Under the pieces are notes generated by a model. The model was not told the DNA's origin and did not search any database. It saw nothing but the letters and a program-made list of their open reading frames with translations. From Ulva prolifera (Eukaryota; Chlorophyta; Ulvophyceae; Ulvales; Ulvaceae): a stretch of DNA of 64,000 nt. Each line of letters opens with the position of its first letter. Position 1 is the first letter of the stretch. The translations under genes were made by a program, and so were the position numbers. The stretch lies in NCBI GenBank assembly GCA_023078555.1, contig CM041200.1, forward strand, positions 5,708,861 to 5,772,860. Reading direction: 5' to 3'. Below are positions 1 through 54,570 of the stretch, piece by piece.

Positions 1-2997
1 ACTGAAGCGTCCGCCTTACGTGCTGGAATGCACTGTAGCGCTGCGGCTGCTGCTGAACTCGTCCCCGTGGATGACCCGGGGCTGGCGGGGCCATACCTGT
101 CTGCCCCCATGGATGCATGGCGCTGATTTCCAGCAGCGCCAATGAGGGCGCCTCGATGTCTATCATTTCCAGGCTTGCAATGTGAGCCTGGTGTTACACA
201 GGGACTCGATGGCGATGCCTGTTGTGATGCATTTCGTCTTCCGGGTTTCCGCGGACTGTACCGCGGCGACGTCGTGACAGATACCTCCAGGCCACGGACT
301 TCTGCTGATGTGGCTGCGCTCATGTCTGTACACACTGTAGGCACGGGCGAGGCACGAGAACTGACACATGAGCGGCTGCAACAGCGCTCTAATGCCGAAG
401 TCGACCGCAGCTCCATCGACTTTGTCAGTGCACCCTGCATCAGATCTAACGCTGCAAAGTTGTCCTGCAGCCACGCCTTGCTGACGAGGCGCTGACCACT
501 TACACGGCGGCTGTCCTTGCGAGTGTCACGGGCCATTTCGTGTGCGGAACGAAGCCGAGCACGTGAGGCATCAGCTTCAGGACTACAAGTGCTGCCAGAT
601 GGCTCAGCCAGGGCATCACTGATCACCTCAAGCCTGGCAGTGCCACACGGCATGCCTGTAGATACACTGTGCGGCAGCGGCGGCGTGTGAGGCCTCACAC
701 GCTCAGGGGGCAGCGATGTAGATGGCTGCATCTGATCCACAGGTTTGGCCTCGGGGCTGCACAGCGTCAAGCCGTGGACAGGCACGATTGAGCCCCAGGG
801 TGCTTCACCCTCCTTGCTGCGGATTGGCTGAGAGCATACTGAGCTTAGGGAGCTCAGGGAGCTCAGGTCGCCAAGTGCGTCTCGGCAGGCAGCCTTCTCA
901 GGATCACTGGGTTCCCTGCCCGCATCCTCTGTGTACACTGCATCATGTTACTTGCACTGCTCAGAGCTAAGACTCACAACAACAACGACGACAAGCAAGA
1001 CTATGCCAGTGCAGAGGAACGTCGCACCCAAAGCACCAGGCATGCTGTGGCCCTGACTAGAAAATGTCTGGCTCGCGGAGGTATCCTGGATTGGCTGTAG
1101 CACTGGTACGATATGCACATCTTCCACATCTGAGAGGCAGAAGGAACGAATCCGCTGGCTCGCTGAGGACTTCATGCGCACTCCTGCTGCAACAGCAGCC
1201 TTGCCCTTGGTCAGGCTGCTGCGCAGGGACGTGCTGGCTGAAGCAGGAGTTTCCCTGAGACGAGCCGACAGCGACGCATGCACACTGCCCAACAGCCGCC
1301 GGACCTCCTTACAGGCCGCTTTTGTACGTGTGTCAGATGCTGGATTCTGAGGCCCTGGTTGTGAGTCTTCACAACCACTGGAAGTACTGGCAGCAGGCAC
1401 AGCCAATGGCTGTAGTGTTGGGGGCATTGCGAGAGTCATTGTGTCTGCTGAGAACGAGCTAGCGTTTGAGGCACGTGGCCAGCGAACTTCGGGGAGCTGC
1501 TTCCGCATGAGATCTGAGTACCGCTGCAAGTATGGCTGCATCCATGGTAGCTTGAGGATGGCGTCGGCAGTGGGCCGGCGGGCTGGGTTCTGTGACAACA
1601 TGGAGCGAATGAGGCTGCACAGGTGGACGCTGAAGCGAGATGGGACCGGAGAGAAGCGGCCCATCAGGATGTTGACCATCAATGCCGGCATGGTGTTACC
1701 ACTGAATGCCCTTTTCAGTGTTGTCAGCTCATACAGCAAGCATCCAAGGCTCCATATGTCGCTCTTCTCACAGTATGGCTTGCGCTCGCACATTTCTGCA
1801 GAAGTTCCATTCATGTGTCAGTTTGGAACCCAGTTGGCTGACCGGAATTAACACGAATGCTCCTGTGCAATGCAGATGCAGCTGTGCGCTTCCTCACAAT
1901 CATGCGCACGAACTGCGAGGTATGTGGTGATCCTGATGTCTGAACCATGTTCCAAGAAGCTTTCTGTCTGCAACTGCAGATTCATGAGGCAATGCATGTG
2001 CGCCTCGTTGGGCCTGAACCAGATCCGTAAACTGGTCATGAGCTGCGCTTGTGTATGTGTGCATAAGTGATTTAACCAAGACAACACAATTCTGCAGTGG
2101 TGTCACGACACGTGTCATCCAATCACGGAGAGCGGGGGTGATCTCTGTCATTACTGGCAGACTATGGCCTGAACGACACAAATGCACGCATTTATGCCGT
2201 GATGCAGTTGCGTGCATTCATGTCGATTGACAAAGAAGAGCTGCACCTGGGCTACGGTAGCACGGAGTACCCACAGGGGTGTTTGAAAGCCGCCCGTTTG
2301 TTGTGTCGACCATTGTAGCTAGGCCGAAATCTCCCAGTTTGACGATGTTGTCATGCCCCAGGAGAAATACATTAGACGACTTGATGTCTCGATGAAGGAA
2401 CCCACGTGCATGTACGTAAGATAGTGCCAAGGTGATCTGAACAAATGTAAGCAGGACAAACTCCTCGCTGAAATGCTTTCTTTGAGAAGCACGCTGCTGG
2501 ATCAGGCCCCCCAGATCACCGCCCGCTGCGTTTTCCATGATGATGTACAAAGCAGATCGCTCTGCACAAAACGGTTCCCTCACTTGATCGGATGCAGTGG
2601 TACGAGATGCTGTACCAGGAACAAGCGGGAGGCAAAAGCAGTGAAAGCATCAGCTGCGTACCATTGTTGTAGCGCACGTCATGATAACGGATGATATTAG
2701 TGTGCCTCAGATGCGAAAGCGTCTGTGCTTCTTGCAGTGCCATCTGGCGTTCATCCGGGTCCAATGTGTCCACCCTCACCGCCTTGACAACAACACTCTC
2801 ACCGCTGCACCTACACTCAGCAGCACCTACTTAACATGTACCACTATGTAGGTCGCAAGGCAAACTCATCATTCCAAAGTCATGAGAGCATACCTATTCC
2901 TAGCTGCATGAACAGTGCTGTACGACCCTTCACCGATGACCGACTCGATGGCGTATGCTTCATCAATTGGCTGGTCGCACACCGGTAGCGGTAACAT
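1..2997 (-). CDS. NIMA-related (NEK) serine/threonine kinase, 3' end off window
   Basis: Serine/threonine kinase of the NEK family. Members act in cell-cycle and ciliary control. Exons read by eye: 2997-2894, 2810-2662, 2582-2247 and 1795-1037, with matching phases, then an open exon 937 to 1. Visible kinase parts in order: glycine loop IGEGSYSTVHAARN, catalytic lysine in SVVVKAVRV, LYIIMENAAGGDL, catalytic loop FLHRDIKSSNVFL, DFGLA, activation segment GTPCYRSPE (split by the 1796-2246 intron) and KSDIWSLGCLLYEL. The ATG at 2997 lies just before the kinase domain; an upstream exon is possible. After the domain comes a low-complexity Ser/Pro-rich tail of more than 400 residues, still open at base 1. 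If the 938-1036 intron is ignored, the frame ends at 948 after a hydrophobic run that mimics a tail anchor. Family is secure; the exact NEK subtype is not. Confidence 0.85.
938..1036 (-). other. Inferred 99-bp intron in the NEK tail
   Basis: A GT donor after 1037 and an AG acceptor before 937 are in matching phase (phase 1). Joining them removes the stop at 948-950 and links two frames that are both open. The pyrimidine-rich stretch would otherwise translate as a valine-rich hydrophobic segment. Inferred from sequence only. Confidence 0.6.
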
Positions 2998-8004: not shown

Positions 8005-8300
8005 CTTACAAGCATCTGCACAAACATTGTGTGTCGCTGTTGGCTGTGTACACATAGTGTATGCTCTGAGCAGGCCAGAAAGGGCCTGGAGAAGTCACAT
8101 ATGCACCAATTGCAGGCATCCCGTCGTAATTGTATCGACATGGCCACGAGGGCTGTGGCCCCAGCTTTCCCCGTGGCCAGCTTCGGGCTCGTGTACATAC
8201 AGCTGCGCAGATGGGAAGCCAAGCTTCAAGGTTTCTACTGTTGCAGATGCAGGCGCGTGCTTCCAGGCCTGGGCTACGCAGCACCCACAAGCCAACAAGC

Positions 8301-8418
8301 ACACACGAATGCGGGTGCAGGTGTATGTTGGACCGGTTGGCTGGCTGTGTTCTTGACCTGCTTGCTGCTTTCGCGGTGCTGCCCGCCTCGCCATCTTTCT
8401 CGTAACACACAAATGCGG
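8301..8418 (+). mobile_element. Short SINE-like insertion (90 bp) with 14-bp target duplication
   Basis: Bases 8315-8404 end in the family's constant terminus (TGCCCGCCTCGCC, then a TCGTAA end). They are flanked by ACACACGAATGCGG at 8301-8314 and ACACACAAATGCGG at 8405-8418, one mismatch in 14. It is the shortest copy seen. Keeping only the 3' constant end fits a 5'-truncated product of target-primed reverse transcription. Mechanism is inference. Confidence 0.6.
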
Positions 8419-8419
8419 T

Positions 8420-9489
8420 TACCGGCTGTGCATCCGCACCCGCGGCAAGTCCGACGCGATGCAACGCACTGCGTCGGCCGCCATTTGCGCACGTGATCAC
8501 GTGCGGACAACCCGCTATAAGGCGCTAGGCCTAGCTATGATCAGTCATCTGGGATCCAAGCTTAAGCAGCGACAAGCGCGCCCGATGGGTCTCGGTTTGA
8601 TCGTACATGTACAGAGTCGAGCTAGCTAGCTGTAGAACTAGAAACGGTACAGGATATTCGGCGGTATGCAATAGGGCGCGCGGGGGTCGATCGCGACTGA
8701 ACATGTACAGGAGCTGTGTACACAGTGGCAGCCGTGCTATCGCATGCTAGCGCTGCAGCGCGCTGCGGTTGGCCATGCCGGCGAGGCAACAGCGCTGCAG
8801 CTGGCGAAGACGCGTATGCAGCATACCTCCGACGCCGGATTGTTCCACGCTGCTGGTAGCAATCCAGATGTTATTCTCTCGGCTGGCTGCCGTCTGTGCC
8901 TTCGTATCCATGGCCATCCGCGCGCAGCTAGCGCAGCGCCGTTACAGGGCTCTGCAGTGCTCGAATCGAGCTCGGATCGATCGCTGTTGATTGGAGCCGG
9001 CAGATGCGGGAACCGTTGCTGTATTAACAAACAGAAGTACGCCTTGGAATTTTCATAATACAACAAGGCGTGTCTTGGATCTCAGATGTGCACAGCGACA
9101 GGAGATGAGTCGCTACAGCTAGCTTATAGCGCTTGCTTCAGATACGCAACTTAATTAGATGCCTGAGGGGCCAACGTGGCAGGCAAGGCTACACGAACAC
9201 AAACATATGCGCATCTATGCGGAACATGTTCTGCAGCTGTCTTGCATACGCAGACGGTCGTCTCGCAAGTGCTGCGTGCAAGGCCGTGCACGCATACAAG
9301 CGATGCCATGGTGCACGTGCTGTTGCGCCCGGGATTCGCTGTGCCACATGGTGCACGTGCCTGCAGCAGCTTCCGCCGCCGAACCGCCTCCACCCATGCG
9401 GCCCGGGCCCCTGCGCGGCCACACTCCAGCACGGATATGCATGCTTGAGGCCCATCAGCTGCAGGCCTGTTTCCAGATCTACAGGCGGG
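8420..9489. other. Gene-free stretch
   Basis: No supported gene. Long frames overlap on both strands around 8740-9060, which argues against any one being real. Bases 8488-8503 contain a 16-bp palindrome, GCACGTGATCACGTGC. The rest appears unique. Confidence 0.35.
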
Positions 9490-9766
9490 CATGTCAGCCT
9501 GTGTTACAAGGATAAAGCAAGCGAGGCAGGTAGCATCGCAAGCAAGAACCAGGGGAACCGCACACCACGCAACAAGCCACACGCAGCACACACCAAAACA
9601 CCCACGCAACGGCGGCACCCGCGCCGGCCACAGCCCCACAGCCACACACACGCCCACGCCCAAACGCCCACCCCCAAAGCACAAGCAGCCAAGGCCGCCG
9701 AGCAAACAAACAAACACTGAGACCGCAACAACAACCCCCAGCCCTGTCCACCATGTCAGCCTGTGT
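9490..9766 (-). mobile_element. SINE-like insertion E1 with perfect 15-bp target duplication
   Basis: CATGTCAGCCTGTGT occurs at 9490-9504 and again at 9752-9766, bracketing 247 bp. Read on the minus strand the element ends CCTTGTA at its junction with ACACA of the target. Its plus-strand face is rich in C and A. The body is closely related to those at 9931-10172 and 54241 onward. There is no poly-A tail and no convincing protein. The long minus-strand frames here are low-complexity shadows. Confidence 0.75.
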
Positions 9767-9794
9767 GCACACACACGCTGTATACATGTGCATG

Positions 9795-10397
9795 CACAGT
9801 ATACACATACGGGTTTGTGGCTGGGGAGGCCCCTGGCAGTCGGGCGGCTCGGACAGGTGGCCTCGGGCGGCACCTTGTCGGGCGCGGCTCTATCGTGCGG
9901 GGATAGGCGCTATGGTGTGGGGTGCTGTGTTGCGAGGACAAAGCAAGCAAGGCAGGTAGCACCGCGAGCAGCAACCAGGGGAACTGCACACCACGCAACA
10001 AGCCACACGCAGCACACACCAACACACCCACGCACCACCAGCACCCGCGCCGGCCACAGCCACATAGCCACACAGCCACAAAGCCACAAACACTCACAAG
10101 CATCACACCCAACAACCACACGCCCACCCCCACCCGCACCCCGCCCACCAGCCAGGTGCAAGAGCCCCGAAATGTGGGGTGCTGTGTGGGTGTGTGTGGT
10201 GTGTGTCTGGGTGCGTGTGTGGGTGTGGGTGTGGGTGTGTAGCGGTCTGAGATTCTGGGTGCGACGTCGATTTCTGGGCGCGTGGTGGGATCTGTTTGTG
10301 TTGCGTGGGTGTCTGGGTTTGTGCTTGCTCTGCTTGCTTCTTCCGCGGTGCTGCCCGCCTCGCCGCATTTATCCTTGTAACACAGTATACACATACG
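9795..10397 (+). mobile_element. SINE-like insertion E2 with perfect 17-bp target duplication
   Basis: CACAGTATACACATACG at 9795-9811 is repeated at 10381-10397. The 569 bp between end in ATCCTTGTAA, the constant family terminus, here in plus orientation. The element is split by a second copy (E3). Net of E3 and its duplication it is about 312 bp. The right part is GT-rich. Confidence 0.75.
9916..10187 (-). mobile_element. SINE-like insertion E3 nested inside E2, perfect 15-bp duplication
   Basis: TGTGGGGTGCTGTGT at 9916-9930 recurs at 10173-10187, flanking a 242-bp copy in minus orientation. It lies wholly inside E2, so it inserted later. Its body matches E1 over most of its length and diverges only toward the variable end. 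Confidence 0.75.
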
Positions 10398-10684
10398 TAG
10401 TTAACAGTTGCCATCGCAAGATTATGCGAAATTTGGCTCAGACTCACTGCCCGAACTATCATAGAATCCCTGTCTTCCGGAAGCTCTTGCATGCAGCTAG
10501 TCACGCAGCTGTATAAACCAGGGCGACTGTCGCATGTGCATGGCCAGGGGACCTGCTGATACAGGCTCGAGAATTTGGCAAAATTGCCGAGTTCCTTTCA
10601 CGGATATGCTGCTGCTTGCGTTGGGCTGACTTCAAGAACCACCAGACCTTGGACCGGAGCGCCACGATCCGCCAATGTGTGTTC

Positions 10685-10870
10685 CTAACAAGGATAAAGC
10701 CGGAGAGGCAGGTAGCACAGCCGAAACAACGCACAAGAATACCCACGCAACGACCAGCAGCGGATGCGGACACACGTCTAACGCCTCCACAGCACCCGTG
10801 CAAAGCACGACCACCTCACACTCCACGCCAGCGCGCACGTGCACTTAAGAGACACACGCACACCCCCACC
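10685..10870 (-). mobile_element. Degenerate SINE-like copy E7
   Basis: AACAAGGATAAAGCC followed by GAGAGGCAGGTAGCAC matches the family end, but the terminal motif carries an insertion and no duplication is visible. The far boundary is a guess. Probably an older copy. Confidence 0.4.
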
Positions 10871-23800: not shown

Positions 23801-26800
23801 TTGGCCACAAGGTGCCAGTACATGTCAGGATTTGTCTGACTGTGTGCGATCTCTTGGTTCTATTTTCGCAACGGAGCTGATTTCTTGTCAGTTTGTGTTT
23901 CAGGGGCTGTGGGAGAACACTGTGTGTGCCATTCCGGAAGGGAGCAGCAGTCTTGAGCAGGATGTTGAGTTTGCTTTTGCTTTTTTTGCATGTCTCGTAC
24001 GAGCGAAGGCTGTGCCTATGGAGGCTGTGTGTGAGCTCATCAATAATCCAGAGCACCTGCGGCCACCCCAGCACATTACACCACGCAGTTTGGATCACCT
24101 TTTTCACATCATGCTCTATGCAAACTCACATCTGGGTACTCTTGTCGAGACAAACGAGCTTCCGAGTTGTCTAAGTTTATTGCCGTCAAATGAGCAGCCA
24201 CGCACACAATTTGTGGTTAACGGATCTGGCAACGTGGTTGGTATGGAGTACCTTTTCCAGGTACGCACTGCTTGACTTGGCCCCGCAGTACCTCTTGGCA
24301 GGTTGATGTGTATTTGCCCGCCACGTCCGTCCCTGCAAGTGGTGTTCCCATTTGTGCGCGTTGTAGGATATACATCTCAAAATCTTGTTCCGCCGCAGGA
24401 AGTTGTGTCTCATGCTGGTCCTTCCTGCAGGTGCTGACTCATGCACTTGATGGCCATGTTGCTCAAGAGGCAGCAAACATGTTGGTCAGAGTGTACATTA
24501 AGTCTTACTGTGACTTTGGCCGCTGCCCTTCATCGTGGACATCGTGCGATTCTTGCAGAGCAGCGGAATTTCTGCACATTACAGGGTCACTGCGTTGTTT
24601 GGTGCCTCTAGCCATGCAGCACATGTTGCACATCTCTGATGTTAGTGTGTGCTCCAATGAATCTTGACAATGCTGGAGCATCATCTCGGTGCCATGTTGA
24701 ATGCTGATCAAACGATTTGAACATTCCACCATGTTTCATTTTGGCTGGAGGTGTTTCAGCCTGTGACATGATAGGGTGGTACTGCAGATTTGTGTCTGAA
24801 GTCGTTTCAAAGCTTGTGGGATACGCGACCACTCTAATGGGTGCTGATGACGATCCCAGCGTGAACCACAAAGACACGTTTGCCGCAGCACATGACTTGC
24901 CGCAGGATAGCCTCTGTGGATTCGTGCAGCGCACGTTGCTGCTTTTGATCAGCATTTTAGACTGGTGCCATGGATTCAGCATGCCAATCCAACGGCCTCA
25001 CCACGCCAGCGCAAAAGGCTTACAAGTGGAGATGGCTGCAGCGGGGATGCTTCGAGCTGGCCTCACATCTATCGACAGCACTCAGGCTGAGGTGGACATC
25101 GCCTTGGACCGTGACAAGGGCAAGATTCTGCTTGCAGTGCACAGCCTGATGGTGCGCACTTTGCCATTCACTGTCGCACCCAGAGCATAATGTAGCTGCC
25201 AATGATTGCGCACCTGGCTTGCGCACGTATGTGACCACATTTTGGGGCTATACATAGTGAATGCCGCCTCATCTGATGCAGACTTCTTTATGCAGTACAT
25301 TGGAGATATCAGGAAGTTTCTTGAGCAGATTGGGGGCTGTAAGCCTGGGACACTGCATCTGATCATCCTGGGGCAGGAACGTGCTGATGACAGCTTGCAA
25401 CTGGGAACGATCATGCAGCCAATGCTGGATGCAAGTGGAGGAATAAACCCTTTGACAGTCCAGGTGAAGCAGGCGCGGTTTGGCAGCCGGGACGAGCGTG
25501 TGCTTGCTGCACCTGCTGCGCTACATGTGCTCTCCGATGAAGTCCGGGAGGCAATCCTCGAGAGCTCGCCTGATGTGAAGATGTCTGCAGACGCTTCACT
25601 GATCAAAGTGTTGACTTGTTTACTGGATATACCGCCCAAATTCTACGAAGTGCATCAGCATGCATATCAGCTTCTCATCCGTTTGCAAACATGGCAGCCA
25701 CTGGTGGAGGCGCTCCGATGTGCAATGGCGGACAGTACGCTGCAATCGAGCCATAGTGACATCAACACCCTCTTCTACCTACCTCCTCACAGCAGTGAGG
25801 TGAAACACAATGGCACCCTTCCATCCTGGCGACCACGGCCTGGAGCTGTGCTCTACACTCTTGAAGCTTTGTATGCGTTGATGGAGCCAGCAATACCTTC
25901 CACAGCCGGTGTGCACCCTTCCTGAAGGTCACCTTGGTAGTGTCAGGCGTCAGGGCAGAATGTTCAAAATGTTTGTGCATGTCTACCAATGCCTCTGACA
26001 CGTACACTTTCTGGCTTGGGTACAGGCTGCTACCAACAAATTTGCACCTGCAATGATGCATGCAGAATGATTGAACCATTGGCATGCAGGCAGTCAGGAT
26101 GCCGCTTTTACTTGTTGTCCAAACAGAACAATCCTCACTGTGATTGAGGCAGCTGATGCACATTTTGACCGTGATCGTGAGGACAAGTTTTTCTGGCTGC
26201 AATACTATCATACAGTCGCCAAGGTTCTGAAGTGGGTGCTGGCACATGCCAAGCTTCCCCCTGGCGCTGACCCTGCTGAAACATCACAGACAACTGGCGC
26301 GGAGGGTCCACGACAGCTGAAAAGCAGTCAGCAGGGCATCGGTGAAGAGGTGGTATCAGCACATGAATCAGAAGCAGCGGCTGCAGACAGCATTGGGAAC
26401 CAAAAATCCGCTGATGTGCCCAGCATGATTGGTATGTCAGATTCGGTTGCGGCCGAGGGCAGGCCAGGTGCAGATGCCGTGCTGGAGTCTTCAAGCTCTT
26501 CGGACCGAGCAGCTGGGACGTTGCCAAAGGTGACTTCACGGCAGAGCATGTTGGAGCCGGATGTATTAGGCAAGCTGCTGAAGTTCTGGGTTGTTCTGGC
26601 GACACGTCTGAGCAAGGGCTTGCCCGAGCCTGAAAGTGTCTGTGGCCGCATGGGTCACAGGTCATGGTGTATGAATTCTGGGCCGACCCTCTCCGACAGG
26701 TTGCTGCTTGACGAAGTGATGATGATAATCAAATCCTTGGTAGGCATACGCCAGGATCTGCTCGAGGGTGTGATCTTCGGGCAGAGCTTCCGAGACATGG

Positions 26801-29800
26801 CCACGGAGTTGCTGTTCAATTCGTTGGACCACTCCGTCCGCGGTGGCATGCGCGACTTGGTGTCACTTTGTGCTGGCAGCGCTACCCCGGCTGGTCGGTG
26901 CCACTTGTTGACGGTGTGGGCCAGGTATCTGACTGCAACTTTATCCCACTGGCAGACTTGAATCTGTCAAAGAAGCTACTTCCTGATGCCTGCTTGCTTC
27001 CAGTGTTTCCAGTACCCTTAGGATCCATTGCCATGACATCTGCTATGTCTGTCCCTGCCTCAGGATGTCCATTGGGAATGCAGATCATGGCGAGACCGGA
27101 GATGGCAGAAATTGCTGAGGGCGCACAAATGCACTGTCAGCAATACTTTGAGGCACTTGCTTCAATTGTACAGACTGCAGCAGATGCTGACGATGGCGAG
27201 TCGGTGCCTCGCCTGCAGCAGCTTTTTGTGGCCGAGTTTGCAGTGGTGCAGGGATTACAGCCTCAGGCTACTGAGAGGACTCTGGGGCACCTGACCTTTT
27301 TACACAGTTTGTGGCGATTTTTCGTGGAGCACCCCTCTCATGCCCCACAGGAGATGCTTGCACCGATGCGAGACAACGGCACAGTTGAACTGATTCTTGA
27401 TTCACTCCTCTTTCCCGAAGCTCGTCTAATGGCTAAGTATCACCTACGATGTTCAGATGGAGCCGCGGTCGATGATGATGTGGATGATGATGCTATTGCA
27501 GACGACCTCCTGTCTGCAGACACTGTGTTGCCAGCTACAACTCTTTCTCCAGAGGCCCGCACAATGGCATACACACTGCTGCACACGATGGTGATGTATA
27601 GCGACAGCATGATGTCATACTGCTTGCAACGGCTAGTGGACATGCTTGGGGATGGTCCGCCCAATTTCTCCATTTTGAGACAGCAGACAACAGAGCACCG
27701 GGTTGCAGCAGAGGGTACACTGCTGGATTGCCGGCAGTGGTGCGGGCTGACTAATGCCGGTGCAACATGCTACATGAATGCAGTCCTGCAGCAGCTCTTC
27801 ATGCAGCCAACAGTCAGGGCTCTGGTGCTGGCGCTCCAAGTTCCGGGGATGGAGGACGAAGATGAGGACACACTCTTCCAGATTCAGCGGACGTTTGCAC
27901 ACCTCGCTCTCTCAACGGCGAGGGCATTCACACCTTCAGGGGTCTGGGCGTCTTTGAAAGACTTGGAGGGACAGCCCGTCAATGTCATGGTGTGCCTTGC
28001 AACTCCTGGCGTTGTCATTCGCAGCAGCACCTCGCTGAGAAGCACCTACATCTGTCTGGGAAAGTCTATGAACAAGATATTGCAACATATGGCCTTGTCA
28101 TGCAGGAACACCAGGATGCACATGAGCACTTGTACCAGTTGCACAACATCATTGATGGCAACGAAATTGAGACGTGTGAAACAAAGCCCATGTTTGCGGC
28201 AATGGGGGGCACGTCCGTGCTGCGTATCAGGTGCAGGACTGTAGATTACGAAAGTCGCCGCACCGAGCCTTTCACACACATCAGTGTGGATGTGCAGGTG
28301 TGTCAATTTCAAACGTCATTGTTCCTGCTGCTGCTATTGCATACATGCGATCCGGGCAATAATTTGTTCGATATTCAATGGTCATACCGTCCTCAAAGCT
28401 TTGAGACAACGTGCGTGGGTAGCTGTGCGGCCTGTTTGCCGGCTCTGTGGCATCAGGTGTTGCTGTGACCGTGTCCCATGAAACCTCGAGAATGCTGCAA
28501 GTATCCTATTGTGCAGAACATGCACCATCTGGAGCGGGCATTGCATGCATACTTCCAAGAAGAGCTCATGGAAGGTGACAACGCCTACCATTGTGACAAA
28601 GTCAATGCGAAGGTCCCAGCAATCAAGCGCACCCTGCTGGCCAAGCTGCCCCACACGTTTGTGGTGCAGCTGAAGCGGTTTGAGTTTGACTTCAAGAATG
28701 GCATGCGCGTCAAGATACAGGAGCGCTTTGAGTTTCCAAACAAGCTCAACCTTCGCAAGTTCTCCGAGGCTGCACTGCTAGAAGCTGAGGCAGCAGAAGC
28801 CAGTGCTGCAGCCGGGGCTGATTCAGTAGCTGCCAGCTGTGCATCGCAGGCGTCTGCAATGCCAGAAGGCTTTTTTGAATACGAGCTGAAGGGCGTGGTG
28901 GTGCACATCGGCTCTGCGTTTGCGGGGCACTACTATTCCTTTGTGAAAGAGCGAGGAGCAGATGGGCGCTGGCTGTGTATGGACGACACTTCTGTGACAC
29001 TGTGGGATCCTTCAAAGATGGAGGAGTGCTGCTTTGGCGGCCAGGGTCCAGATGGCCGCATGCGCCCGAACTCGGCATACATGCTTGTTTATGAACGGCA
29101 AGACAGCCTGGAGCCAGTAGTTGTGAAGGAGGAGCTGCAACAGCTCGTGCGGGGGGCTGCAAAGAATGGGGTCGGCATCTGTGGGAATGAAGTGTTCCTT
29201 CCTCCGCAGCGCATGCTCCGTGCCAGCGGAGCCAACAGTCTCCTTGAAGATCCACTGGCATTGGGGCTGCCACAGCGTCTATTTGCTGAGGTCATGGACC
29301 ACAACTTGTTGATGTCTCATGCTGCGAATTGGACTTCACCGTCCCACCTCTGCTTCATGAAGACTGTCGTGACTGACTGTCTACAAATCAACAGCTCAAG
29401 CGATTGCCATGATATTCGGCATTCCATGGCCTCAGGATCAATCTCGGGTGTCAAGACCATGTCTTGTGACACCCGTGACACCAGCTCCAAACGCCTGGCC
29501 ATCGCTGTGCCCCGTACATCAGCAGTGCTAGATAGTGCTGCGCCAATTCAAGACACGGCACAGCCGCTGGCTCTGCCGGCAGCAGCTGCGCTGATCCAGG
29601 AAGCCCCAAATAACGAGGACCTTGCAACGCACCTTGCGTTGAAGTACTGCGTTTCTGTGCTGAACTTTGTCCCAGACATAGATGACAGCATTATGCACTT
29701 CTTTGCTGAGAGCATCGAGCATGGACTACAGCGGAGTTCTGTGCTGGAGGCAAGTGTCAAAATTGTGCTTCTAGGCCTGCTCTGGCAAATGCCAGGGTCC

Positions 29801-31505
29801 CCTTTGCTGTGTACCGATAACTCTGCCGTGCACACAGACCGGTCAGTGCGACTGAGCTACACGACATCTGCACAGCGTGTGCTTGCCGCGTGCTCAGATC
29901 AATTGTCGAAGGGAAATCTTGATGTGGAGCAGCCTGACGCTTCTGATCTGCTCTTGAAGGTTTGTTCCACCAAGATGCTCTTGGTCACTAGTTGTAGCAG
30001 TTGTGGGGTTTCGAATGCGCTCGTGCGGCGCATGATCAAGCGTAAGTTCCCCTCTCTTCGAGGCCATGATGATCAGCTTCTTGTTGCAGGTACATGGTTT
30101 TATCGATACATTGTGGCATATTCTGAAGCGTTACTTGTCAGCCAAGACATATGCCGCTGCTGAGAGCTTGATTTTGATGACAGCAGAGTTGTTGACACAT
30201 GCGCCTCTGCGGATGATCACAGACCAGATCACAATTGATCCTATATCGGTCATCACGATGGCACTGCCCATTGTCGTGAACGAGCGCAGCAGCGAATCGC
30301 CGCAATTGTTTAGGCCTGCGCATGCACTGTGGAAGGTTATGCACTTCCTACTTTTCAACGCATCTCCGGAACCGCCGGGGAGGTATGAGCGCATCATGCT
30401 TCGGCCTGCTCTTGTTCCTGGCTGTGAGGTGGAGGCAGAGGATGCATTCCTAGCCGCACGGTTTGCTGATCAACGTGCCAAGCCAATTTCAACACTTGCT
30501 GAAGTGATGCAAAAATACGACATGCTGCTGAAAACTGCAGACATCATCGTGAATGCACCGAGCAAGAACTCCGTGCGCCGCTTCTTCATCCTTGTGCTGA
30601 GCCTCCGGAGTTTGATCCGCTCATGCTAGCAGAAGCGTTCACTGTGCACACCATCCTTCTACACTGATGCGAACCAGTGCTATTTTTCAGCCATTCAGGG
30701 TTTGTCTGCTGCTCCTCAGGGACCAGCTGCGATGGAATTCTGCTGGGCAGCGGCGCCTACACCACAAGATTTCCATTTATGTGCAGGAGAAGTATATTGA
30801 ATTGTTCATGAGCCCGTTCCTTGCAATGCTTCGTGCCAGGCCAGATGTGCATGAACAAATTTTGATTCCAATCTTGGCTGCGTTCCAAGATGTGTGCAGT
30901 AGCGAAGATGATTCAGACTATCTTGATCGGGCCACTTTGTTGGTGAGAGTGCTGGTAGTAACACATGCAGATGACATGCAGAGTCAGCGCATCCGGGTGC
31001 GCAGCAGCTTTTCGTGCTTCCTGCTCTCGAAATATACCAGATTCCATCTGCTCTGCCACCTCTGCCACCTCTGCCACATTCTGCGCATTCAAATTTGCAT
31101 ACCTGGCATCAGTGACTCGTAAACATGATCTTGGTTCTGCTCCTGTCACTTGTTACATCAATGCAGGACATCTTTTGCTACAATTCTGGGAGGCCATGGC
31201 CGATGGGATTGTTTGGATGTGTATCTTTTATGATGCGCTCAGCTGAGCGTCGGGAGGGCAGAGCAGCCCTGGCTTTCAATGCCTGTCGGCTGTTCTTATA
31301 TGTCTGCGCCGAATTCCACAAGTGGAATCCGGATCTCCTGCAATTTGCTGTGCCCCAAGACATCCGGGAAGCTGAAGTAGCGCTTAGTGTCATGACCAAC
31401 ATGCTGACGATGATGACCAAGTACCAACCACCTAGACTATCAAACGAAGCGGCTGGAACCCTGTACAAGTTCCTGCATACCTATGTAGAAGAGAGGCATG
31501 CGTGA
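20820..31505 (+). CDS. Giant ubiquitin-specific protease, USP9X/USP24/USP34 type
   Basis: Deubiquitinating cysteine protease spread over about 10.7 kb and many exons. It starts at the ATG at 20820 (MNNCEDNSGDLPDDD) and stops at 31503. The N-terminal 6.5 kb encodes helical, leucine-rich sequence without catalytic motifs, as in the ARM/HEAT region of large USPs. The catalytic domain begins with the Cys box GLTNAGATCYMNAVLQQLFM (Cys codon 27768). It continues through QPVNVMEHQDAHEHL (after a splice near 27990-28104) and FVVQLKRFEFDF. The His box is VHIGSAFAGHYYSF (His codon 28928), followed by WLCMDDTSVTLWDP. The C-terminal 2 kb is again helical. The zinc-ribbon site looks degenerate: YHCDKVNAK replaces the usual Y-x-C-x-x-C. 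Exon borders outside the catalytic region were not all traced. Confidence 0.9.
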
Positions 31506-32281: not shown

Positions 32282-33963
32282 GATTATGCCAAGTGCTTGG
32301 ACTTGATCCAAGAAACCGTGACGTCTGGCCAAAGTGGATTTTTGCACTACCCGATTTTTGTTAAAGCCATCATTCTCCGGCAGCAAGGTCAAATTAAAGA
32401 GTCGTTGCGTGTTCTTGAGGAAGCGATCCGTCTCGACCCACAAAATCCTGACAACCTGAAGCAAGTGGGACATTCACTGTACCTGCTGGGGCAGCACCAA
32501 GTCGCACTAGACGTCTTCGATGAAGCTCTGCATGTGTATCCAAGCGACTGGGAAATCTACCACGAACAGGGCTTATGTCACCTGTATTTGTCTCAGCTGC
32601 CACAGTGTGCTCCAGATCAACTTTAACAATAATGGTCACACTCCAAAGCTTTGCTCAGACTGTAGAGCTTCCAGTCCCAGCAATTTTTGGAGTGAGACAG
32701 CACGTAGTCGCAGTAAGTGGTATGAATGCATCATGTGTGACGCAGAGCCGAAGCTGCATTTCGACAAGCGATGGAATTGGAACCATACGAAAAGACCTTT
32801 GAGCAGCTTGGAAAGGTTCTTGTCATGCAAGAGCGGCCGGAAGAAGCACTGGCGGTATACATGGAATCCCTGCAGCTGACACCTGACAATGCAGATGTTC
32901 TATGCCAGATTGGGCTGTTGCATTTACGACAAGGTGACCCAGACTTCCACTGCAGTTGTGGAAATGGTGAACAGTTATGCTGGTTGCCTGCTTGGCTGAA
33001 CAGTTGTTGGCTTCTGTCGGGTCAAGCAAACAGATCCAGATCTGCATCTCTATGCTGGAGCATCTGGACAAGGGCTGCAGTGGAGTATTGTATGCCTGCA
33101 GGTGACAATGAAGCTGCCCTCTCCACACTACAGAAAGCAAATGCTGTCAATCCACAGCATTCAAAAGCAACGCTTGCCCTTGGCAGTGTTCTGCAGGATG
33201 GATTGGACCTAGACGGTGCCTTACTGCAGTATCGTGTGGCTGCTGCAGTGCAGCCAAACATTCCACAGGTGTGCTTCATGTCGTCAAAATCATTGCAGAG
33301 CGGGTCGACACGACTTGATTGCTTCCCAGGTTATGGAAGCCAGCTGCATTATCTACTGAATCTGTTGCATGGACTTTGGACAGGGGAAATTCACACCTGC
33401 AGTGTTTCACTGCAGGTATGGAACAACGTTGGTTTGTGCTTTCTTGGGAAGCAACGCTACATAGCAGCAATTGCGTGCCTCAAGCGTGCGCAATACCTGG
33501 GGCCATTTGAATGGATAGTCTGTTACAACCTCGGCCTCGTGCATCTGAACACCGCACAGTATGCAGCTGCATTCAACTACTTCTCTGCAGCAATCAATCT
33601 GCGACCTACGTTTGCACATACATACATGTACTTGGGAGTGACACTGGCCAGGCTTGGAGACCTGGACAACGCACTCCATGCGTATGAACGAGCCATTGGC
33701 AAAGATGATGCTGACCCAATTTTCTACCTGAACTATGGTATGCCATCTCCTCATTGACCGCAAAAGCAACAACACAGACGGACAATCTGGTGGGGCGTTT
33801 TGCAGCAATCACGCTTTTCAATGCTGGTAATGGTGCCAAGGCTAGAGATGTGTTCAACAAGTTTCAAGCTAGGTTTGATATGTGGGACGAAGAAATGAAG
33901 AACGCAGACCCTGACATCAACGAACAAGCAACCGCGTTGACATCCTTACTCCGAAGTAGGTAG
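32282..33963 (+). CDS. BBS4: BBS4, BBSome TPR subunit (5' exon not resolved)
   Basis: BBS4 is a BBSome subunit that acts in ciliary membrane-protein traffic. Five exons join in phase: 32282-32604, 32746-32933, 33102-33268, 33416-33737 and 33806-33963, giving 385 residues plus a missing N-terminus. TPR-type repeats run throughout. Segments line up with BBS4: DYAKCLDLIQE, NLKQVGHSLYLLGQHQVALD, DWEIYHEQGLCHLYLSQ, NADVLCQIGLLHLRQG, WNNVGLCFLGKQRYIAAIAC, LKRAQYLGPFEWIVCYNLGL, VHLNTAQYAAAFNYFSAAIN and NYAITLFNAG. The order and spacing match the human protein, with a shorter C-terminal tail (ends TALTSLLRSR). The first frame starts at a splice acceptor, so one or more exons lie upstream. Confidence 0.9.
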
Positions 33964-34134: not shown

Positions 34135-37100
34135 TCACTGGCCTGTTTGCGCTGCAACCTCTGCCGCAAAGTCATCCGACTTCTTCTCGATTCCCTCACC
34201 CAGCACAAATCGTGTAAATCTCCTGACCTTCATGTTTTCGCCAGTTGCAGCAATTGCCTCCTTGATCACCACATCAACCTTCTTGTTGGTGTCCTTGATG
34301 TACTCTTGGTCCAACAGGCACATCTTGGTCAGAGTTTTGTTCACACGCCCCTCTACAATCCGGGGGATTTGGGCCTCAGGCTTGCCTTGCAGGTCATCCT
34401 TGCCGGATTCAATCTTGTACTCAGAGTCCTTGACGGCCTGGGGGATGTCGTCCACAGACACATACTGCACCTCCGGATTTGCCGCAACCTGGACACGCAC
34501 AAAACGTGTGTTGTGGTGTCAAGGGTAATCTGCTGGAAAATGGGACAGCTCCAGGCCCGGAGACACATAGTGCTCCCTTGCAGCATATCAGGACATCATG
34601 CACATGGCCTAGGCGCATCAAGCCATGCTTACAGCTTCGTTGCATGTGCCCTACAGGGCCCACCACGAGACGACGATGCAGACATGCGGGGACCCTTACC
34701 TGCATCGCCATATCAGCTGCGAGCTCCTGCATTACATCACCCTTTGCCACAAAGTCAGTTTCGCTGTTGACCTCGATCAGCACCCCCAGGGATGACCCAG
34801 CATGGATATACGATGCAATCAGCCCTTCTGCTGCGACGCGGCCAGCTTTCTTATCAGCTGAGGCCAGACCCTTCTTCTTGAGCCACGCCTGCACCATATC
34901 AATCTATCAGGTGGTCCCTCAAATACATCATGATCTCTCACATCGCTGGCTGACGACCCTTGAAGTGGTCTTCAACCTGCACTCTATACAGCAACAGCGG
35001 CGCAGCCATACAAGATGGACTGCACTTGTGGTACAGCTGCACAAAGCAGAGACACACGCTTGCTGCCTCGAGATCGTTGTTGTTTTCTGCAAGGGCACCC
35101 TTGCAGTCCATCATGCCCGCCCCAGACATAGTGCGCAGCTCTTTCACAAGCTTGGGGTCAACCTTGACGACTGGCTTCTCTTCAGCAGGCTCCTCCTACA
35201 AGTGTCAATCTGCACTCAATATGACCCTTCACAATGCCAGTCCATCGCACATCTCACAACTCACGGCCGCTCTGTGTATTGCAGCTCCAATTGCACAAAG
35301 CAAAACCCCCTCGTCACAGGTGGCAACTTCAAACGACCTCGAAGCTGGTCATGCGCAAATCATCCAATGCCTGTGATAGTGTAAGTGGGCAAACCTTCTT
35401 CTCTGCAACAGGTGCTGGTGCAGGCTCAGAGTCCTTCTTCTCAGTCTGCGCTGCTACCTCTGCAGCAAAGTCCTCCTCCTTCTTCGCAATGCCCTCACCC
35501 AGCTCGTACCGAACAAAGCGTCGCACGGTGATGTTCTCACCAAGCTCCGCGATCTTCTCCTTGACAGCGTCTGCTACACTGGAACCATCCTCCGCACGGA
35601 TGAATGTCTGCTCCAGCAGCGCCTGCTGTGCCTTGATCTTTGCAATGCGGCCGTCCACAATCTTCGCGCGAATCTGCATGTCGCCACCGCACTTTGCAAC
35701 AGCAGTTGCACGAGCCTGATGCTGAAGGCATGCAGGTTCCGCCCCTGAAGCCCAGCTGGCTGCTGCTCGCCGAGGCAACGCCAGAACGGCAGCCAACACA
35801 CGCACTGCCTCTGCATGTCCATCGCATCACACCCCCGTCCTATGAACCTCCAGCCCCCAAAACTCATGCATGGCACCACACAGCGCCCCTGCTCAGAACA
35901 ACCTGGAAAGGGACCTGTTCAGTGCGGCCATGGCACACACGTAGCCCTGTAAGCCAGCGTAGGCAGACACAGGCAGCAAGAAAGACAAGACACAGCCCGT
36001 ACATTCTCCGGCTTGGACATGAGATCCTCCTTCTGCATCTCAATCTCCCGCTCCTTCTCCATGTCCTCGGCAGACACATCATCAACGCTGACCACCTTTA
36101 CGTCCGGGCACGCAGCCACCTGCATCGCGATGTCCGCTGCAAAATCCTTGAAGATCTCACCGCGCGCGACAAAGTCCGTCTCGCAGTTCACCTCCACAAG
36201 CACGCCGAGGCGGGAGCCTGCATGGATGTACGATGTCGTGACGCCCTCTGCGGCGACGCGGCCCGCCTTCTTGTCGGCCGACGCGAGGCCCTTCTTGCGC
36301 AGGAACTCCTGCGCCGCCTGCACGTCGCCGTTGCACTGCTGCAGCGCCTTCTTGCAGTCCATCATGCCCGCCCCGGACATCGCGCGCAGCTCGCGGACCT
36401 GCCCGGCAGACACCGCAGCCGGTGCGGCCTCCGCCACTGGCTCGGCTGCCGGCTCAGCAGCTGGCTCTGGAGCAGCTGTGGCCTCTGGCTCTGGAGCCTC
36501 TGGCTCTGGCTCAGCTACGGCCTCTGGCTCCGGGTCAGCTACGGCCTCTGGCTCCGGCTCGGCTACGGCCTCTGGCTCTGGCGCGGCCTCGGGCTCAGGG
36601 GTGGCCTCTGGCTCAGCTGCAGGGGCGGCAGCCTCCGCCACCGGCTCTGTCGCTACAGGGGGCTCCTCTGCGGGCTCTTCCGGGGCAGGCGACGTAACTG
36701 GCGTAGGCTCAGCTGCAAACATGTCACCAAGGCCAAGGGCGGTGAGGTCACTCAGAAGCGAGCCGCCGACGGCAGAGGAGGCGCCATCCGAGGAGGCCCC
36801 CTTGGAGGCCTCGGCCATGGAGGCGCGGTCCTCGTCGCTGATGGCGGTCACGCCGACCTTGGAGCCATCAACCTTGAGGACGGTGACATCCATAACGTTG
36901 CCAACGGTGACGAGGGTGTGCGGGTTGGGGTCGAGGTCCTCCGCGGCCGACATCTCGGCAGTCGGTAGCAGCACCTCGAAGCCGTCCGGCAGCTTCAGGA
37001 ACGCGCCAAAGCCCGCAATGCGCATCACCTCGCCCTTGACCTTGTCTCCCACGTTCAGGCCGTGCTCCTTCACGACTTTCTGACGGGGGGCGCGCTTCTG

Positions 37101-38876: not shown

Positions 38877-39404
38877 GTCCTGAGGGCGTGTTACAAGGAC
38901 TGAGTCGGAGACGCAGGCAGCACCGCAGGAACCGGGAGCACAACAAACATAGGAACCCTGCACACACAAGCCACCGCCGTCGCTCCACAGAGAAAGATAC
39001 CCATACACTGCTACGCGTCAACAAAATCCGCGTACTGCATCACCTCCACACATCCACAGCTTCACCTTCCAAGGCACACCTCTACAAACACCCACACCCC
39101 ACACCCCATGGGCGTGTTGATGTTTTTGTGCGTCACTGCGGATGCGCTTGGTTCTGCTTGGGCCACGGGTTGCTTGGCGCGGTGCCGGGGTTGAACGGGT
39201 GCTCCTTCCGTGAGGGCTGCCGGCGGCTTGGGTGCGGTGTGCTGGGTTGGTGGGCCTGTTTTTGAGCTGCTCGCTGCTTTCAGGGTGCCTGCCTGGTCGC
39301 ATTTGGCCTTGTCACCCACACCCGCACCCAATGCACGCTGCGGCACCATGCCAGCAGCCCCCCTCCCACCACGCGCGGGGCCTGGGCGGCCCTGAGGGGA
39401 GTGT
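38877..39404 (-). mobile_element. SINE-like insertion E4 between the two PETs-family genes
   Basis: GTTACAAGGAC at 38890 marks the family terminus in minus orientation. Imperfect flanking repeats GGTCCTGAGGGCGTGT (38877-38892) and GGCCCTGAGGGGAGTGT (39388-39404) suggest a decayed target duplication. The interior contains a second copy at 39100-39312. It separates PETs from its truncated S1-S1 paralogue. Confidence 0.5.
39089..39323 (+). mobile_element. Possible nested SINE-like copy inside E4
   Basis: A plus-orientation family terminus (GCCTGGTCGCATTTGGCCTTG) ends near 39312. It is bracketed by CACCCACACCC at 39089-39099 and 39313-39323. The repeat is short and low-complexity, so this is weaker than E1-E3. 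Confidence 0.4.
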
Positions 39405-51128: not shown

Positions 51129-52887
51129 ATGTGTGCAGTGACTGTGGCAGAGGGGGATGAGGGCTGCCTGCGGGTCGAGGGGACACGGCTGGTCGCAGCA
51201 TCTGGGGAGGTGGTGCAGCTCCGAGGGGTCAACTTCGGGGGATGGCTGGTAAGCATCGCCACCTCGATCGCGTACATCAGTCCTGGAGTCTCCGAAACTG
51301 CCTTTCGTTGATTGTGCTGGCGATTTGGCAGCTGCAATTATAACATACTACTTTCATGGCTGTATCAGCCGTGCATGTGTGCGAGGCAATGGGGCCAGCA
51401 AAGCCTGGAGAGTCTCACATACGTATTTGTGCGCAGCCGTGATCCGCAGAATTCGTCTATCATGTCACACCATATTCCAGGGCGGCAGATGTTGTAGCGT
51501 CCGTGGCCTGCACTGCTATGGTGCCGCGGCGTTTACAATGATCGTGGCTCCTGACAACACCCCGCACGTTGCAGTCACGGCCGCACATCCAATCCTTGTG
51601 CCAGACATCAGGTGAAGTGTCGCTGCGATGTCAGGCTCACCACGCTGCCACATGCTAGCATCGGCGGCTGGTCTCCCTCCTCGGAACAAATCACAGGTCC
51701 CTCTGCGGCTGACTCAGCTGTCATGCACAGCGATCATCCCTACCTGTCTGTCCGCCTCTGTGCAGCACAGCACCAATCTCCCGGAACATCAGCCCATCAT
51801 CGCTCCATGCCCACAGGTGACGGAGGACTGGATGTGCGGCGTCCGCGACGACAGCGACGGCCCGGCCGGCCGCTTCGTGCTCGAGACACTCCGCGAGCGC
51901 TTTGGAGCCGACGAGGCGCAGGAGCTGCTCCGCATGTGGCAGGACAACTTCATCACGGAGGACGACTTCCGGCGCGTCAAGGAGCTCGGCTTCAACTGCA
52001 TCCGAGTTCCCTTCAGCTACCGCACGGTCCACCCACACTCCGTGCACCACGAGGACGACCACTGCCCGGCGCAGACCGGCAGCCTAGACTTTGCGGTGCT
52101 CGACTGGGTGGTCGACCACGCGGCAAAGTACGGCCTGTACGTCGTGTTCTGCATGCATGTATGGTGGGGCCAGGAGCGCGGCCGCACGAGCCGCACCGGC
52201 GAAGCCGGCGAGGCGGTGCGCAGCCGTGCGTACGACCTGCTGACGAAGGAGGGCGAGACTGGGTCGCGGGCGCGGCAGCAGCGGCAGCACGCGGTGCACA
52301 TCTGGCGCGGCATCATCGAGCACTTCAAGGGCTGCGCGGCGATCGCGGCGTTTGAGCTCGTGAACGAGCCGTACGGCGGCGTCCATGGCGCGGGCTTCCT
52401 CGTGCGCGCGCTGCGCCATGTCGACAAGAAGCGGCTGTTTGTGGTGTGGGAGGAGCCGGTGGAGGAGACGCGGGACTGGACGAACGTGCTCTACGGGCCG
52501 CACCTGTACGAGTTCCGCAGGCCCGACGCGCGGGCGGACTGCCACGCTATTTCGGAGAGGTTGCAGGGAATGGCAAAGACGCGGGAGGGCTTCCAGGTGC
52601 CGTACTTCATCGGGGAGCTGCACTGCTTCACGGAGGGTGAGGAGGAGGCGCGGATTGCGACGGCGGAGCTGCTGCGTGGGCTGAATGAGCTTGGGATGAG
52701 CTGGGCGGTGTGGACGTACAAGGGGATTGACGTCGGGGACTGGGCGCTGGTGTGGGTGAGCGATGCAGCGCGGGTGAACGCGTGCGAGGACTCCGCGGAG
52801 CGTATCCGGGAGTGCTGGTCGCAGATGCAGGAGAAGCAGCACGACAACACTGCGTTGCAGAGAGTGTATGCTGAGGCGCTGCGGTGA
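51129..52887 (+). CDS. GH5-family glycosidase (cellulase / exo-beta-1,3-glucanase type)
   Basis: Retaining glycoside hydrolase, probably on a beta-glucan or related glycoside. Two exons: 51129-51248 and 51817-52887, giving 396 residues from the ATG at 51129; an in-frame ATG at 51102 is an alternative. The first exon carries the GH5 opening motif LRGVNFGGWL, split by the 568-bp intron. Then come LGFNCIRVPFSYR, the acid/base glutamate in FELVNEPYGG and the probable nucleophile in VPYFIGELHCF. Near the C-terminus is MSWAVWTYKGIDVGDWAL, the usual last-strand Trp region. The family barrel is complete. No signal peptide is seen, unlike many secreted GH5 enzymes, though an upstream exon could supply one. 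Third codon positions in exon 2 are almost all G or C, unlike the USP gene. Confidence 0.88.
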
Positions 52888-54240: not shown

Positions 54241-54570
54241 TGTTACAAGGACAAAGAGGCAGGTAGCACCACAAGCAAGAACCAGGGGAACCGCAAACCA
54301 CGCAGCAAGCCACACGAAGCGCACACCAAAACACCCACGCAACGGCAGCACCCGCGCCGGACACAGCCACACAGCCACACAGCCACACACACGCCCACGC
54401 CCACACGCCCACCCCCACCCGAAACCCGCCCACCAGCCAGGCGCACCAGCCCCGGAAGCACAAGCAGCCAAGGCCGCCCAGCAAACAAACAGCGAGACCG
54501 CAACAACGACCCCCAGCCCCGGGAGGCCCCCGCCTCCCCCAGCACAACCCCCCAAGCCCAGCCCGTGATG
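54241..54570 (-). mobile_element. SINE-like copy E5, longest version
   Basis: Begins TGTTACAAGGACAAAG on the plus strand (3' end of the element read on the minus strand). It contains the segments found separately in E1 and E3, so it may be closest to full length. No flanking duplication was found. The low-complexity C/A-rich face yields long spurious frames. Confidence 0.6.

Follow-up and report, generated by a model that had tools for sequence, protein, structure and literature searches.

Short repeats in a 64-kb window of Ulva prolifera are very probably 3′-terminal fragments of a recently active LINE with CACA targets

The stretch of Ulva prolifera DNA analysed here (64,000 nucleotides; hereafter the window) holds genes recognized with Pfam together with copies of a short repeat, listed below under the LINE from which, as argued in what follows, they very probably derive. 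Besides the one segment of elongation factor EF-Ts matched by Pfam, a second was seen by eye in the same gene at 34–36 kb; plastid EF-Ts polyproteins occur in chlorophytes.

948–1814, minus strand: protein kinase (Pfam)
8301–8314, plus strand: left target duplication of copy 1, ACACACGAATGCGG (14 bp, differing from 8405–8418 at one position; strings compared by eye)
8315–8404, plus strand: copy 1, 90-nt 5′-truncated LINE 3′ end of a divergent subfamily (profile match 8335–8404, E = 1.5e-7)
8405–8418, plus strand: right target duplication of copy 1, ACACACAAATGCGG, pairing with 8301–8314
9490–9504, minus strand: target duplication on the 3′ side of copy 2, CATGTCAGCCTGTGT (15 bp, perfect)
9505–9751, minus strand: copy 2, 247-nt 5′-truncated LINE 3′ UTR (profile E = 1.3e-17; length set by the duplication)
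9752–9766, minus strand: target duplication on the 5′ side of copy 2, pairing with 9490–9504
9795–9811, plus strand: left target duplication of copy 3, CACAGTATACACATACG (17 bp, perfect)
9812–10380, plus strand: copy 3, LINE 3′ UTR with about 312 nt of its own sequence, split by nested copy 4 (profile E = 1.8e-11; duplication)
10381–10397, plus strand: right target duplication of copy 3, pairing with 9795–9811
9916–9930, minus strand: target duplication on the 3′ side of copy 4, TGTGGGGTGCTGTGT (15 bp, perfect)
9931–10172, minus strand: copy 4, 242-nt LINE 3′ UTR nested in copy 3 in opposite orientation (profile E = 7.5e-16; duplication adjoins the homology edge)
10173–10187, minus strand: target duplication on the 5′ side of copy 4, pairing with 9916–9930
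10688–10742, minus strand: copy 5, LINE 3′ end, faint and old (profile E = 1.5e-5), also detected as inverted-repeat arm I3 and absent from the duplications of the preliminary description
26712–30160, plus strand: ubiquitin hydrolase (Pfam)
32741–33754, plus strand: TPR protein (Pfam)
34135–34518, minus strand: EF-Ts, one segment (Pfam EF_TS, E = 5.4e-21)
38892–38976, minus strand: copy 6, LINE 3′ end, faint and old (profile E = 7.1e-6)
51616–52884, plus strand: family-5 glycosyl hydrolase (Pfam)
54244–54565, minus strand: copy 7, about 322 nt of LINE 3′ UTR, 91–93% identical to full-length relatives

A preliminary description of this DNA had proposed a SINE-like family of at least six copies sharing one terminus. 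A profile built from 27 distinct 3′ ends, among them that of the copy at 54241 in the window (L001), recovered seven copies at E ≤ 1.5e-5 and two further weak matches (E = 0.006 and 0.14), while ten Markov-shuffled windows gave no match at E ≤ 0.01. The duplications reported at 9490/9752, 9795/10381 and 9916/10173 are exact over 15, 17 and 15 bp, and the one at 8301/8405 is, as described, 14 bp long with a single mismatch. Comparison of both flanks of copy 7 (54241–54570) detected no target duplication. The absence of any protein, also remarked upon in the earlier account, holds in that tblastn with three LINE proteins found no match in the window, but only because the window copies stop before the coding region.

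In the 88.9-Mb assembly (44 contigs), the shared element end TTTGTCCTTGTA occurs 1,788 times against 13 for its reversed control, followed by ACA at 1,454 of these places and by ACACA at 1,176, and the 15-mer TTTGTCCTTGTAACA has 1,454 exact occurrences against none for the reversed control. The 3′ UTR terminates in TTTGTCCTTGTA and probably takes in a portion, at least, of the AC run; poly-A is absent, as had been pointed out. Measured by homology, the elements in 32 copies with duplications range from 27 to 5,434 nt, no start being visibly favoured, and the shortest element ends comprise just 12–13 nt, bearing out the proposed combination of a fixed 3′ end with variable 5′ truncation. Consensus folding (alifold) of 26 chosen 3′ ends found no conserved hairpin: the value was −0.16, and column shuffling gave −0.66 on average.

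A genome search with the 54241–54570 copy, as the preliminary description had suggested, did yield related copies: of 901 first-look candidates, 40 were scored and 41 matches listed. At eight retrieved loci homology continues upstream beyond the 330 bp originally delimited, by differing amounts and for 2.9 kb in L009 and L023, and some copies extend into an open frame with reverse-transcriptase (RT) motifs (GVRQGDPLGPLLF and CHDDTYVQG). With a 357-residue RT query, nine of the 116 matches listed span the whole query and lie in frames of at least 1,440 codons; from stop to stop, these nine long copies measure 1,440–1,556 codons. The copy L038 (C1:781800–787700), about 5.4 kb long, ends 3′ in TTGTA and is flanked by its own 21-bp duplication, CACACACACGGCCACAATGCA. 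Its frame and those of L039 and L040 (68% and 64% identity to L038) align; a pair of CC..HH zinc fingers at the N-terminus is followed by the RT, a zinc knuckle and a C-terminal domain. The element of about 5.4 kb comprises a 5′ leader, a single open frame and a 3′ UTR of about 560 nt, and since the frame stops that far before the 3′ end, the repeat first noticed corresponds to the 3′ UTR.

An RT frame, the lack of LTRs, a fixed 3′ end, variable 5′ truncation and duplications of variable length are together the marks of a LINE, and we conclude with considerable confidence that the window repeats are 3′-terminal pieces of a LINE about 5.4 kb long that is autonomous and recently active and has an R2-like RT and CACA targets. 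The LINE that had been expected behind the repeat does exist and has the same 3′ end; it is not a separate partner, the copies being its own 3′ UTR. When the last 325 nt were compared, mostly among copies chosen as best matches, 11 of 32 had a 99.7%-identical partner at another site, and these near-identical partners, with the nine long open frames that are left, indicate on sequence grounds that the family is recently active. A putative second LINE family is represented by more than 50 further RT matches at 38–41% identity, with frames of up to about 1,200 codons (for example, C2:8258891–8259988 and C1:1593331–1594461). Locus L018 carries a separate 621-codon frame with RT-like motifs seen by eye; it stops some 2.6 kb upstream from where the LINE ends and possibly belongs to another retroelement type.

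Two other classes of element have to be weighed against these observations. A true SINE would carry its own Pol III head and a LINE-derived tail and be moved by a partner LINE; the window copies, all short and non-coding, would suit it, and SINE/LINE pairs with common tails are described for Chlamydomonas in the accessible part of PMC3747384. In the Ulva copies, however, the sequence upstream of the tail belongs to the LINE itself, as 3′ UTR and coding region, the lengths of duplication-bearing copies spread over 27–5,434 nt, tRNA and Rfam searches of the window gave no match, and an all-against-all comparison of upstream stretches revealed no fixed head common to the short copies. Two copy pairs do share longer upstream stretches (754–757 nt at 90% and 268–274 nt at 69%), which we read as divergent subfamilies. 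Lacking a fixed 5′ end or a head of their own, the copies are better described as the LINE's 3′ UTR cut at many points, and the SINE family first proposed is very improbable. A DNA transposon, for which ten pairs of inverted-repeat arms within 8200–10800 might speak, has practically negligible probability: the arms related to the family are 3′ ends of different copies in opposite orientation, duplication length varies from 10 to 31 bp rather than being constant, and full copies encode reverse transcriptase. Two fixed ends with terminal inverted repeats, the pattern that the preliminary description had set against its own proposal, were looked for and not found; one end varies and only the 3′ end is fixed.

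Flanking duplications proved to be widespread at other genomic copies of the LINE. With the 5′ edge set by homology alone, the right flank recurs beside that edge (score ≥ 10) in 32 of 56 copies, whereas permuting the right flanks 100 times gave 0.73 such copies on average and never more than 3; at a score of at least 14 the figures are 20 of 56 and a permuted mean of 0.07. The 56 derive from 75 rows, of which 64 had the required terminal TTGTA (the nested window copy 9931–10172 was thereby lost); rows with A/C-only right flanks were then dropped (L016+, L021+, L024+ and L037+, L021 not being a true microsatellite), as were those with the 5′ end at the locus edge (L004, L008 and L039) and W54, the same DNA as L001. 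Long young copies are over-represented because most of the 64 rows are best-scoring genome matches. No duplication was found beside the homology edge in the other 24 copies, at least one of which, window copy 3, does carry one that the edge test missed because of the nested insertion inside it.

Duplications in the 32 positive copies are 10–31 bp long, with 18 at 13–15 bp and 25 at 13–18 bp, and CACA lies within the first bases of the left, pre-insertion copy in 30. The earlier remark that nearly all targets begin with ACACA therefore extends genome-wide in the form of CACA. Three of the 64 rows (L016, L024 and L037) sit within long (AC)n tracts, and in L037, a near-full-length copy, about 0.9 kb of almost pure (AC)n follows position 5517 up to the end of the retrieved stretch.

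The origin of the AC run at the 3′ junction bears on how such targets are selected. We compared the alternating A/C run at the junction with that of the target in 29 copies, taken from 32 rows by leaving out L026, L038 and L060, which have no counterpart in the target; these 32 had been chosen by other rules than the 32 duplication-bearing copies. The run at the junction exceeds that of the target in 19 copies, matches it in four and falls short of it in six. An excess of a single base (nine of the 19) would be explained by a fixed end TTGTAA without any AC tail. The other ten exceed the target by two to eight bases, so that in at least ten copies the element, or slippage on it, appears to have supplied part of the run, as expected if an RNA ending in AC pairs with a TGTG primer. 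The suggestion that the terminal bases pair with the nicked target thus finds support at ten of 29 junctions and not at the nine that differ by one base, the four that are equal or the six that are shorter.

The CACA preference could instead reflect nothing but the cleavage taste of the endonuclease, with no RNA–target pairing and with slippage producing the extra AC. R2-type endonucleases recognize DNA, which counts towards this explanation, as do the ten junctions without excess and the nine with one additional base, whereas the two to eight extra bases at the remaining ten are what an RNA ending in AC would leave. We regard cleavage taste alone as a rather doubtful yet serious competitor, and consider that (A)CACA targets probably pair with the RNA end. 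In a cycle built on such pairing, the endonuclease would nick the strand opposite a CACA run and create a primer ending in TGTG-3′, which, judging from the junctions, would pair with the end of the element RNA, where AC is present. Reverse transcription would begin at the fixed 3′ end and halt at a variable distance, often below 60 nt, as the observed products suggest; the other strand would be cut, mostly 13–18 nt away, to give the duplications that are observed.

Very short products of this kind are frequent. In a systematic sample of 28 loci, seven insertions measure approximately 13–56 nt, each flanked on either side by an exact repeat of 10–21 bp:

L042: 23 nt, repeat preceded by nine unmatched bases; among the two weakest
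L044 (G000:C1:688040–688870): 12–13 nt, twice in tandem
L046: 32 nt
L054: 38 nt, 10-bp repeat; among the two weakest
L059: 18 nt
L065: 56 nt
L066: 22 nt

The sample, all within the first 6.5 Mb of contig C1, took every fifth of 100 listed places of the 15-mer (20 loci) and eight at an offset, namely entries 3, 8 ... 33 together with entry 42 in place of 38, which lies within the L061 tandem array. Among 73 non-identical ends from the retrieved loci and the window, 15 (several of them units of the same arrays) have a repeat of at least 10 bp within 160 nt, against 0–3 with shuffled flanks. Insertions with fewer than 12 element bases are invisible here because the seed needs 12. At L061 (G000:C1:1803700–1804050), four 39-bp units each consist of a 28-nt LINE end and 11 bp of target, and because every unit joins the two, tandem amplification seems to have come after insertion.

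A continuous truncation curve biased towards short products would explain the 13–56-nt insertions as well as a separate class would. Tentatively, and with a little less than an even chance of being right, we propose that the AC-tailed LINE RNA pairs with TGTG nicks anywhere and that reverse transcription breaks off early so frequently that roughly one insertion in four is a 13–56-nt tag with full duplications, some of them amplified in tandem. If so, the genome would by proportion hold a few hundred micro-insertions, mostly unseen by repeat annotation. In the openly licensed literature, the papers listed on abortive or short insertions concern L1. With insertions of every size class (full-length, truncated and ultra-short) and their duplications intact, this one genome offers a natural record of early-failing target-primed reverse transcription and of the way in which short target sequences may be chosen by an RNA tail; judging from the 13–56-nt tags, a LINE may scatter small insertions missed by ordinary repeat masking. 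What had been proposed as a new SINE class gives way to a LINE that is recently active and has left clear insertion products.

As to the kind of LINE, an RT profile compared with solved structures matched R2 proteins best (E = 1.1e-8, 1.5e-8, 3.1e-5, 3.1e-5 and 0.007), followed by human L1 ORF2p (E = 0.16); Pfam RVT_1 scored below its cut-off on the LINE RT (20.8 versus 29.6 bits). RHN, GD-x12-D and KRDKY motifs were found by eye in the C-terminal part, with GXW replaced by GXI/V; profile searches retrieved nothing relevant for this part in Pfam or PDB and no R2 endonuclease for the knuckle part. LINEs with a restriction-like endonuclease (RLE) are laid out, in the excerpts consulted of PMC5678591 and PMC4640811, as a single ORF with zinc fingers, RT, zinc knuckle, and RH and KX2KY motifs, and have a target preference. 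L038, L039 and L040 show this order (single ORF, N-terminal zinc fingers, RT, knuckle and C-terminal domain) with a deviating knuckle spacing, and by these features the family is likely to be RLE-type.

The alternative would be a LINE from RTEX or some other APE-type clade that existing catalogues already record in green algae. RTEX belongs to the RTE group by RT phylogeny and carries an APE endonuclease; a scan of the three LINE proteins found no APE domain at E ≤ 1, and both the motifs RHN, GD-x12-D and KRDKY and the presence of a single ORF agree with RLE LINEs. The RT is likewise nearest to R2 among solved structures, a set without an RTEX protein. In favour of RTEX, the 3′ repeats given for its green-algal members in the accessible Table 3 of PMC3747384, (CA)n and (CTTGTAA)n, are close to CCTTGTAACACA, and RTE-X LINEs are reported from Chlorella centromeres in the part of PMC11005252 available. 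On balance we consider this assignment unlikely.

The openly licensed literature yielded neither an RLE LINE of chlorophytes nor an element with ACACA targets, and in viral contigs 31 stretches matched a peptide pattern, none of them confirmed as a relative; Repbase may already include this family or the clade to which it belongs. Other green-algal LINEs, in the accessible parts of Craig et al. 2021 (PMC8226300) and PMC11005252, are L1/Zepp, Dualen and RTE-X. Zepp and ZeppL, of the L1 clade, from Coccomyxa and Chlamydomonas (PMC8226300, excerpts), resemble the Ulva family in frequent 5′ truncation, nested insertion and the survival of mostly 3′ ends, but are clustered at putative centromeres, whereas the family described here is spread over many contigs and has no poly-A. 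Green-algal RTEX elements (Repbase, per the available part of Ohshima 2013, PMC3747384), compared by description only, are similar in their (CA)n and (CTTGTAA)n 3′ repeats and differ in that no APE was found here.

With the RLE LINEs (CRE, R2, R4, NeSL including Utopia, for which an oomycete account exists in the excerpted PMC5348765, and HERO), the family shares a single ORF, N-terminal zinc fingers, RT, knuckle, RH/KX2KY motifs and a target preference. It departs from them in its knuckle (CX1CX8HX3C versus CX2-3CX7-8HX4C), in having GD and GXI/V in place of PD and GXW, in a long low-complexity insert between the knuckle and the putative endonuclease core, and in its dispersed short CACA targets as opposed to one gene. 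A parallel in target choice, compared by description, is found among known microsatellite-directed RLE LINEs in Togen of fish, which is NeSL-related and specific for (TG)n according to the available part of PMC4640811; there a (TG)n/(CA)n preference is matched by CACA/TGTG here (30 of 32), with the difference that short CACA runs in unique sequence suffice in Ulva, where just three of 64 rows lie in long (AC)n.
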